Assembly (NCBI RefSeq): GCF_029360775.1
Contig: NZ_JARKMZ010000018.1
Location: 1 to 64,000, forward strand
Direction: 5' to 3'
DNA: 64,000 nucleotides
Source of the DNA: Daejeonella sp. H1SJ63
Lineage (GTDB): Bacteria; Bacteroidota; Bacteroidia; Sphingobacteriales; Sphingobacteriaceae
The notes under the pieces were generated by a model. The model saw only the letters and a program-made list of their open reading frames with translations, was not told where the DNA came from and ran no database searches. The position numbers and the translations under genes were made by a program. Below are positions 54,386 to 55,866 of this stretch, in pieces; within the stretch, counting starts at the first letter, position 1; each line of letters opens with the position of its first letter.

Positions 54386-54405
54386 CTAAATTTAGATTTT
54401 GGCTC

Positions 54406-54413
54406 CAAAAATA
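54406..54413 (-). promoter_or_regulatory. Putative -7 box of the lipid kinase gene (TATTTTTG)
   Basis: Exact TAnnTTTG on the minus strand, 20 bases before the start codon, divergent from the metK promoter. Confidence 0.55.
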
Positions 54414-54446
54414 CTCTTATTTTTTTTTAGAACTTAAAATTTATCC

Positions 54447-54454
54447 TACTTTTG
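54447..54454 (+). promoter_or_regulatory. -7 promoter box of metK (TACTTTTG)
   Basis: Exact TAnnTTTG on the plus strand. The transcript start would be about 54460, only a few bases before the first stem of the candidate riboswitch. A T-run replaces a clear -33 TTG. Confidence 0.6.
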
Positions 54455-54465
54455 CCATGCAAAAA

Positions 54466-54517
54466 AGTGGATCGATTTGCGTTGATTGCAACCACGTAAA
54501 AAAAAGTGCTAAAACAA
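54466..54517 (+). promoter_or_regulatory. Candidate SAM-II class riboswitch in the metK leader
   Basis: Stem GTGG (54467-54470) / CCAC (54492-54495) encloses a loop with GATTT and TTGCAA in the positions seen in SAM-II (metA motif) RNAs. A 12-base A-rich segment with the same length as in that family follows the stem, then GCTAAAAC. A pseudoknot between GCGTT (54479-54483) and AGTGC (54505-54509) is possible, with two G-U pairs. It sits right after the metK promoter, upstream of a SAM synthetase gene. SAM-II is best known from Alphaproteobacteria; the pairing here is short (four bases), so this is a good candidate, not a proven case. Confidence 0.6.
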
Positions 54518-54609
54518 TTTGCCGATTTTTACTCCGATCAATCTTCTTTCCACTTCATTCTGCTTTAAATTACTGGTCATTACTTTTTTAAATAATTAAT
54601 TAAATCACT

Positions 54610-55866
54610 ATGCCATATTTATTCACATCAGAATCAGTATCAGAAGGACACCCGGATAAGGTGGCTGATCAAATTTCGGACGCATTAATTGATAATTTCT
54701 TAGCCTGGGATCCCGATTCCAAAGTTGCCTGCGAAACTTTAGTAACAACAGGACTTGCAGTTTTAGCTGGTGAGGTAAAGTCGCAGACTTATCTTGATGT
54801 TCAGAGAATTGCCCGTGATGTAATCCGTAAAATTGGTTACACCAAGTCTGAATATATGTTTGAAGCCGATTCATGCGGTGTTATCTCAGCAATTCACGAG
54901 CAGTCTGCAGATATTAATCAGGGTGTTGACCGTGTTAAGAAGCAGGATCAGGGTGCAGGTGACCAGGGTATGATGTTTGGTTATGCAACAAACGAAACTG
55001 AGAATTATATGCCGCTGGCTCTTGATCTTGCCCATAAGATCTTAGTTGAGCTTGCTGCACTTCGCAGAGAAAACTCATCAATCAAATATCTTCGTCCGGA
55101 TGCTAAATCACAGGTAACTATTGAATACAGTGATGACCATAAGCCGGTTCGTATTGATGCAATTGTAGTATCGACCCAGCACGACGACTTCGATACTGAA
55201 GCAAACATGCAAAAGAAGATTCAGGATGATATCATCTCAATTCTGATTCCAAGAGTTAAGGCTCAGTTAAAACCTGAACTTCAGGCATTATTTACAGATG
55301 CTATCAAATATCATATCAATCCAACCGGTAAATTCGTTATTGGCGGACCGCATGGCGACACAGGATTAACCGGCCGTAAGATCATAGTTGATACTTATGG
55401 GGGTAAAGGTGCGCATGGAGGTGGAGCATTTTCAGGTAAAGATCCTTCCAAAGTGGATCGTTCAGCTGCTTATGCAACCCGTCACATTGCCAAAAACCTT
55501 GTTGCTGCCGGAGTATGCGATGAAATTCTTGTACAGGTTTCATATGCTATTGGTGTAAAAGATCCGATGGGAATTTTTGTAGATACTTACGGAACTGCTA
55601 AAGTTGGTTTAAATGACGGAGAGATTGCTCAAAAGATCTCTGCAATTTTTGACATGACTCCTTACGGAATTGAGACCCGCTTAAAACTGCGTAATCCGAT
55701 TTATTCTGAAACTGCTGCTTATGGACACATGGGCCGTCAGAGTGAAGTGGTAAGCAAAACTTTCGCAGGAACAAACGGCGAAAGCAAAACTGTTGAAGTT
55801 GAATTGTTTACCTGGGAAAAATTAGATTATACAGATCAGGTGAAAAAAGCGTTCAATCTGGCTTAA
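54610..55866 (+). CDS. metK: S-adenosylmethionine synthetase
   Basis: 418 residues, the length found in Bacteroidota (E. coli about 384). The N-terminus [20 protein letters not shown] (about 3-22) holds the methionine/ATP site, [15 protein letters not shown] (about 116-130) the ATP-binding hexapeptide, and [20 protein letters not shown] (about 271-290) the P-loop-like second signature. It makes SAM from Met and ATP in the cytoplasm. A SAM-responsive leader would be product feedback control. Confidence 0.98.

Follow-up and report, generated by a model that had tools for sequence, protein, structure and literature searches.

A long-loop SAM-II riboswitch before metK in Daejeonella sp. H1SJ63 and a likely anti-aptamer hairpin shared by its relatives in the Bacteroidota

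SAM-II riboswitches have been reported from the Bacteroides group since the original 2005 paper, which contains a few occurrences (PMC1273637), and table 1 of a 2010 survey lists "SAM-II long loops" with the taxa "Bacteroidetes, marine" (PMC2864571). A 2007 survey found SAM-I and SAM-II together in no species (PMC2258182). The SAM-II element before metA of Sinorhizobium meliloti acts on a start 74 nucleotides downstream (PMC9373788). For Flavobacterium psychrophilum, five expressed Rfam cis-regulators are reported and itemised in a supplement (PMC9723704). The name "metK" is absent from the main texts of the RNA-seq papers on Bacteroides thetaiotaomicron and F. psychrophilum (PMC7366714, PMC9723704), and the term "SAM-II" does not occur in the accessible text of PMC12121620.

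The locus described here lies in a 64-kb stretch of DNA from Daejeonella sp. H1SJ63 (the window; 64,000 nucleotides). The gene metK (54610-55866, plus strand) encodes a methionine adenosyltransferase (SAM synthetase) of 418 amino acids, and the open reading frame matches TIGR01034 with 517.3 bits at a cut-off of 309.4, which confirms the gene assignment of the original prediction. Upstream, at positions 54461-54522 of the plus strand, cmscan with Rfam 15 places an aptamer of the family RF01726, SAM-II (long loop), with 59.4 bits at a cut-off of 44, an E value of 7.1e-9 over the window and coverage of model positions 1-60 of 60. This is the sole Rfam match at curated thresholds in the whole window, SAM-I (RF00162) being absent from the metK leader in that scan, and the only RF01726 match in the genome. 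The gene start lies 87 bases past the aptamer end, and position 54609, at which the predicted leader region had been closed, is the base before the metK ATG. The feature "precedes methionine or SAM gene" of RF01726 members is thus found here, the gene being metK. The element is very probably a long-loop SAM-II riboswitch through which SAM synthesis is under feedback control; this degree of probability applies to the switch on metK and excludes the Rho step discussed below. It adds one member to a catalogued family, and its novelty is low.

The original prediction had called for a SAM-II class riboswitch at this place, which the RF01726 match bears out, and had gone on to propose a distinct Bacteroidota variant. 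The short P1 stem of four pairs and the failure of the alphaproteobacterial SAM-II model RF00521 (SAM_alpha), which it had named as a check and which reaches 16.7 bits against a cut-off of 36 in a permissive-threshold scan, speak for such a variant; membership in RF00521 is rejected. That model fails because the Bacteroidota form has an Rfam family of its own, and the other named check, a search with the remaining SAM families, returns exactly this family. Given that RF01726 fits over its full length, has been in print since 2010 (PMC2864571) and is matched in 189 of 201 genomes of the Sphingobacteriaceae, an undescribed variant is refuted and retains scarcely any probability.

RF01726 is common in this bacterial group. 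At an E value of 0.001 it is matched in 25 of the 41 genomes of the relatives set, in the 189 family-set genomes already given (152 over the cut-off) and in 63 of the 395 genomes of the phylum set (57 over the cut-off). Twelve of the 201 family genomes show no match under stricter filters, through loss, divergence or an effect of the filter (G017, G022, G042, G051, G054, G066, G078, G089, G101, G119, G126 and G158). Comparative analyses are based on 153 loci, some of them copies of genomes already in the set, of which a sequence filter parsed 146, leaving out L062, L067, L100, L102, L107, L109 and L115. The parsed loci comprise 125 distinct leaders, which form 77 clusters and yield 32 strict leaders chosen to differ in both the aptamer and the downstream part. 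Letters fixed by the collecting filter are those of the two inner P1 pairs, TTGC, GCTAA, most of GATTTG and, in part, the third P1 pair, so their constancy is no evidence. A metK homologue lies downstream in all 146 parsed loci. This gene context, along with the good score against the model of a SAM riboswitch family, argues against an aptamer that senses a related compound such as SAH; SAM is the predicted ligand, and such an alternative is very improbable. The core letters look invariant, but most are fixed by the filter, and their constancy is no test of the ligand.

The aptamer shows the architecture expected of its family. P1 is formed by GTGG at 54467-54470 and CCAC at 54492-54495, with GATTTG (54474-54479) and TTGCAA (54486-54491) between the two strands. 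The 5' strand of the pseudoknot P2, GTTG-A-TTGC (54481-54489, alignment columns 17-25), is composed of P2a at 54481-54484 and P2b at 54486-54489. Its 3' strand (54508-54518, columns 44-54) contains P2b at 54508-54509 and 54511-54512 (GC-T-AA), followed by P2a at 54515-54518 (CAAT). The A-rich linker L3, GTAAAAAAAAGT, occupies 54496-54507, and the GTAAAAA within it is also half of the predicted anti-aptamer pairing. GCTAAAA begins at 54508, 12 bases past the P1 stem, so that the P1 strands, loop letters and spacing of the original prediction hold, GATTT having been named there as the loop motif.

Covariation was assessed on a MAFFT alignment of 36 distinct short-loop aptamers, a subset of the 125 leaders. 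Pairing in P1 and P2 together reaches 88.4% of cells compared to 82.2% after shuffling, with 29 two-sided changes compared to 10.6 and a covariation score of 0.153 compared to 0.054 (0 of 500 shuffles as good for each of the three). Sliding the partner by one to three columns lowers the score to at most 0.099, and two of the five measures do not go beyond the shuffles (211 and 81 of 500). The four P1 pairs are present in 36 of 36 sequences; since the inner two, both G-C, were imposed by the filter and the outer one was imposed in part, the free test is the only exchanging pair, the second (U-A in 24 and A-U in 12 sequences). At the two positions outside this stem, standard pairing is seen in only 51 and 64 of the 125 leaders, and a four-pair P1 is therefore usual among them. 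P2 as a whole is paired in 82.6% of cells, with two-sided changes in three of its eight pairs, which is consistent with the pseudoknot put forward in the original prediction. P2b is without variation, but its letters are those fixed by the filter. P2a does vary, covaries in part, and does not pair in some of the sequences: in a sample of 90 distinct strand pairs, pairing reaches 2.17 of 3 positions compared to 1.94 (standard deviation, 0.06) after shuffling (1 of 2,000), and in many leaders the helix is weak, with the outermost pair missing in 20 of 36 sequences and each other pair in 5 to 14. Judged by this alignment, the aptamer helices covary, and the conserved pairs in related metK leaders that had been named as a check are present.

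Some variation in the loops accompanies this core. GATTTG reads AATTTG, together with a P1 of GAGG/CCTC, in L043 to L048, L050, L051, L055, L061, L064, L066 and L068. Extra stretches occur in the L1 loop of many leaders of the window's own family (L121, L113 and L106) and in the L3 linker of leaders of family f20 (L056, L058, L063, L064, L066, L068 and L070). Several of these appear hairpin-like by eye, and L1 and L3 represent two alternative insertion places in one aptamer.

The leader is preceded by a promoter of the Bacteroidota type. The -7 box TACTTTTG at 54447-54454 (plus strand) conforms to TAnnTTTG, the sigma-A consensus of a flavobacterium (PMC9723704), and stands where the original prediction had put it. 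The box TANNTTTG by itself is not significant in the window, with 68 found and 67.85 expected; its position is what is conserved. Of 125 distinct leaders, 116 have a TAnnTTTG box 30 bases or fewer ahead of the parsed start of the aptamer, as do 70 of 77 clusters, whereas mononucleotide-shuffled sequences give a mean of 2.2 of 77. Since the box is kept just before the aptamer, the known place of TAnnTTTG boxes suggests that the metK mRNA starts a few bases ahead of it. A search for an E. coli-type sigma-70 promoter found none. The promoter region (54386-54456, about 70 bases) is common to metK and a divergent gene for a YegS-like lipid kinase (TIGR00147; 53513-54385, minus strand).

Directly behind the box, an open frame of 44 codons begins at an ATG at 54457 and might be read as a leader peptide that serves as an attenuator. 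Of the 20 leaders that share their P1 and loop letters with the window, only 7 have such an ATG; five of the seven frames stop after 24 to 44 codons, two run without a stop before the metK ATG, and the ATG itself probably coincides with the transcription start. The leader peptide is rejected, with a negligible probability.

At minimum energy the leader is predicted to fold not into the aptamer but into a long hairpin that dismantles it. In this fold the predicted anti-aptamer strand (54526-54555, plus strand) pairs through 54526-54532 with 54496-54502, through 54535-54542 with 54481-54488 and through 54549-54555 with 54465-54471. The window leader reaches -20.1 kcal/mol with the anti-aptamer, compared to -8.0 and -1.6 kcal/mol for the aptamer and the downstream part apart, the pseudoknot being uncounted. 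The stability of this single case is unexceptional: the fold of 54457-54640 has a z score of -1.24, which 23 of 200 shuffles match, and the duplex in the window itself is moderate, with a z score of -1.43 (4 of 60 shuffles as good) or -1.48 without the P2 strand.

Comparison across leaders points to complementarity between each aptamer and its own downstream sequence. With the P2 strand included (60 bases), the 77 clusters bind their own downstream stretch with -20.25 kcal/mol compared to -17.03 (standard deviation, 0.33) for foreign ones, and the 32 strict leaders show -20.9 compared to -17.29 (0.53), with 0 of 5,000 permutations as good in both samples. No own-binding effect is present in the 77 clusters for the first 60 coding bases (283 of 2,000) or the upstream bases (371 of 2,000), and coding, upstream and reversed downstream sequences of the 32 strict leaders are likewise null (1,210, 758 and 985 of 5,000). 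Dinucleotide shuffles of the downstream part give a mean z score of -1.53 over the 125 leaders, with 43 below -2 and 2 above 1. In these first runs the downstream stretch began inside the aptamer with the 3' strand of P2a, a possible confound. With that strand left out, the next 45 bases still show -17.79 compared to -14.95 kcal/mol (0.31) in the 77 clusters and -18.7 compared to -15.18 kcal/mol (0.49) in the 32 strict leaders, again with 0 of 5,000 permutations. The nine P2-strand bases alone have no effect (3,828 and 3,563 of 5,000 for the clusters and the strict leaders), and the reversed controls without the strand give 341 of 5,000 for the clusters, which is not far from the edge, and 2,465 of 5,000 for the strict leaders. 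The own stretch is bound better than the mean foreign one in 61 of 77 clusters and 26 of 32 strict leaders, and the dinucleotide z score without the P2 strand averages -1.37, with 24 of 77 below -2 and none above 2. The complementarity becomes weaker when split into halves of 35 and 40 bases (38 and 191 of 3,000), and the gain falls mostly in the P1 3' strand (paired fraction, 0.37 compared to 0.25) and the A-rich linker (0.45 compared to 0.35). Since leaders from across the phylum show complementarity between the aptamer and the sequence behind it, a conserved anti-aptamer hairpin is likely. The SAM-bound fold uses L3 and both P1 strands, so that it and the anti-aptamer state should exclude each other.

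Between aptamer and gene, the leader (54517-54609, plus strand) contains 19 C and 6 G and is without a terminator-like site, which makes it a candidate Rho loading region. Terminator-like hairpins are found neither in the window leader nor in any of the 77 cluster leaders, so a riboswitch ending in an intrinsic terminator, a G+C-rich hairpin and a U run before the gene, does not describe this locus. The stretch from aptamer to ATG averages 21% C and 9% G, with C exceeding G in 77 of 77 leaders; without the P2 strand the values are 20% and 9%, and C exceeds G in 76 of 77. The skew peaks at downstream bases 20-40 (C, 0.30; G, 0.10), which in the window correspond to 54534-54553, inside the anti-aptamer strand. 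Control skews amount to a mean of -0.01 for 88 upstream regions of other genes, 0.08 for 44 leaders defined by a TAnnTTTG box, and 0.02 and 0.06 for the two SAM-I leaders of the same genome. A skew equal to or above the metK mean occurs in 11% of the 88 and 23% of the 44 controls, which are not independent, as they were drawn from the window and from loci that in related genomes mostly surround metK, and include many of the same neighbour genes.

Translation initiation in Bacteroidota proceeds largely without Shine-Dalgarno sequences, and the leaders compared here carry no terminator-like hairpin. In the proposed mechanism, the RNA would form P1 and the P2 pseudoknot when SAM is bound. Without SAM, 54526-54555 is predicted to pair with the P1 5' strand, the loop and the A-rich linker, by which the aptamer would be unmade. 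Since the refolding strand would unmake the aptamer in the absence of SAM, SAM is expected to free this C-rich, G-poor strand and to lower metK expression. The last step would be premature Rho-dependent termination, blocked at low SAM by the anti-aptamer hairpin. The composition fits a Rho-dependent riboswitch, the exposure of the strand in the OFF state is predicted from the fold, and a C-rich, G-poor leader without a terminator-like hairpin is compatible with this ending. The Rho gene is present in the genome, which says little, as the same search is positive in 12 of 14 control genomes. Rho-dependent termination is tentatively the likeliest output step, at rather less than even probability.

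Translational control, in which the SAM-bound form would leave transcription running and make the metK start, 87 bases further on, less accessible to ribosomes, follows close behind, though it is itself unlikely. The distance over which the S. meliloti metA element acts (PMC9373788) offers a precedent, and the lack of a terminator-like site in the window leader and the 77 others agrees with it. The S. meliloti element relies on a Shine-Dalgarno sequence that lies within the riboswitch (PMC9373788), and none is seen by eye in the window leader; in the 77 leaders, A makes up on average 45% and G 6% of the last 20 bases ahead of the start. The strand that SAM would free shows no greater complementarity to its own start region than to foreign ones (1,119 of 3,000 permutations as good), and neither does the aptamer (2,896 of 3,000); direct pairing of either with the metK start is rejected.

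The same genome holds two matches to the SAM-I family RF00162, at 969-1070 of locus L159 and 970-1075 of locus L160. One lies 141 bases before metH (TIGR02082). The other lies 238 bases before a metY-metX-like operon that encodes an O-acetylhomoserine sulfhydrylase (TIGR01326), an acyltransferase resembling MetX (TIGR01392 being its best family, though below the cut-off) and a homoserine dehydrogenase, whose gene is truncated at the end of the sequence examined there. Both classes occur in 24 of the 25 SAM-II carriers of the relatives set, the exception being G024. With SAM-I and SAM-II side by side, a possible division of labour between two SAM sensors is testable in one cell.

These observations may add up to a shared, undescribed platform of Bacteroidota SAM-II, although this is less likely than not. 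The anti-aptamer strand would double as a Rho loading site, SAM would free it, and Rho would end transcription before metK in a leader with neither an intrinsic terminator nor a Shine-Dalgarno sequence; SAM-I would handle methionine synthesis and SAM-II the synthesis of SAM. In the open-access literature searched, an anti-aptamer/Rho platform of Bacteroidota SAM-II was not found in print. The output step is the part that could matter, and mutations can be aimed at exact positions of the conserved anti-aptamer, which together with the skewed, terminator-free leader forms the part worth testing.

Among described systems, the RF01726 family is the closest. The window aptamer shares with it the full-length match over the cut-off, the occurrence in Bacteroidota, P1, P2 and the core letters, and shows no essential difference, the window member having a short L1 loop and a four-pair P1. 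The core letters GATTTG, TTGCA, CCAC and GCTAAA of RF00521 (SAM_alpha) also line up with the window aptamer. Many members of that family carry putative intrinsic terminators before the gene (PMC1273637), whereas none is seen at the window metK. The metA element of S. meliloti resembles the locus as a SAM-II riboswitch used far upstream of the start, and differs from it in depending on a Shine-Dalgarno sequence inside the riboswitch (PMC9373788). SAM-I (the S box, RF00162) has the same ligand by family and stands in the same genome before other methionine genes, but adopts an unrelated, larger fold of 108 model positions.
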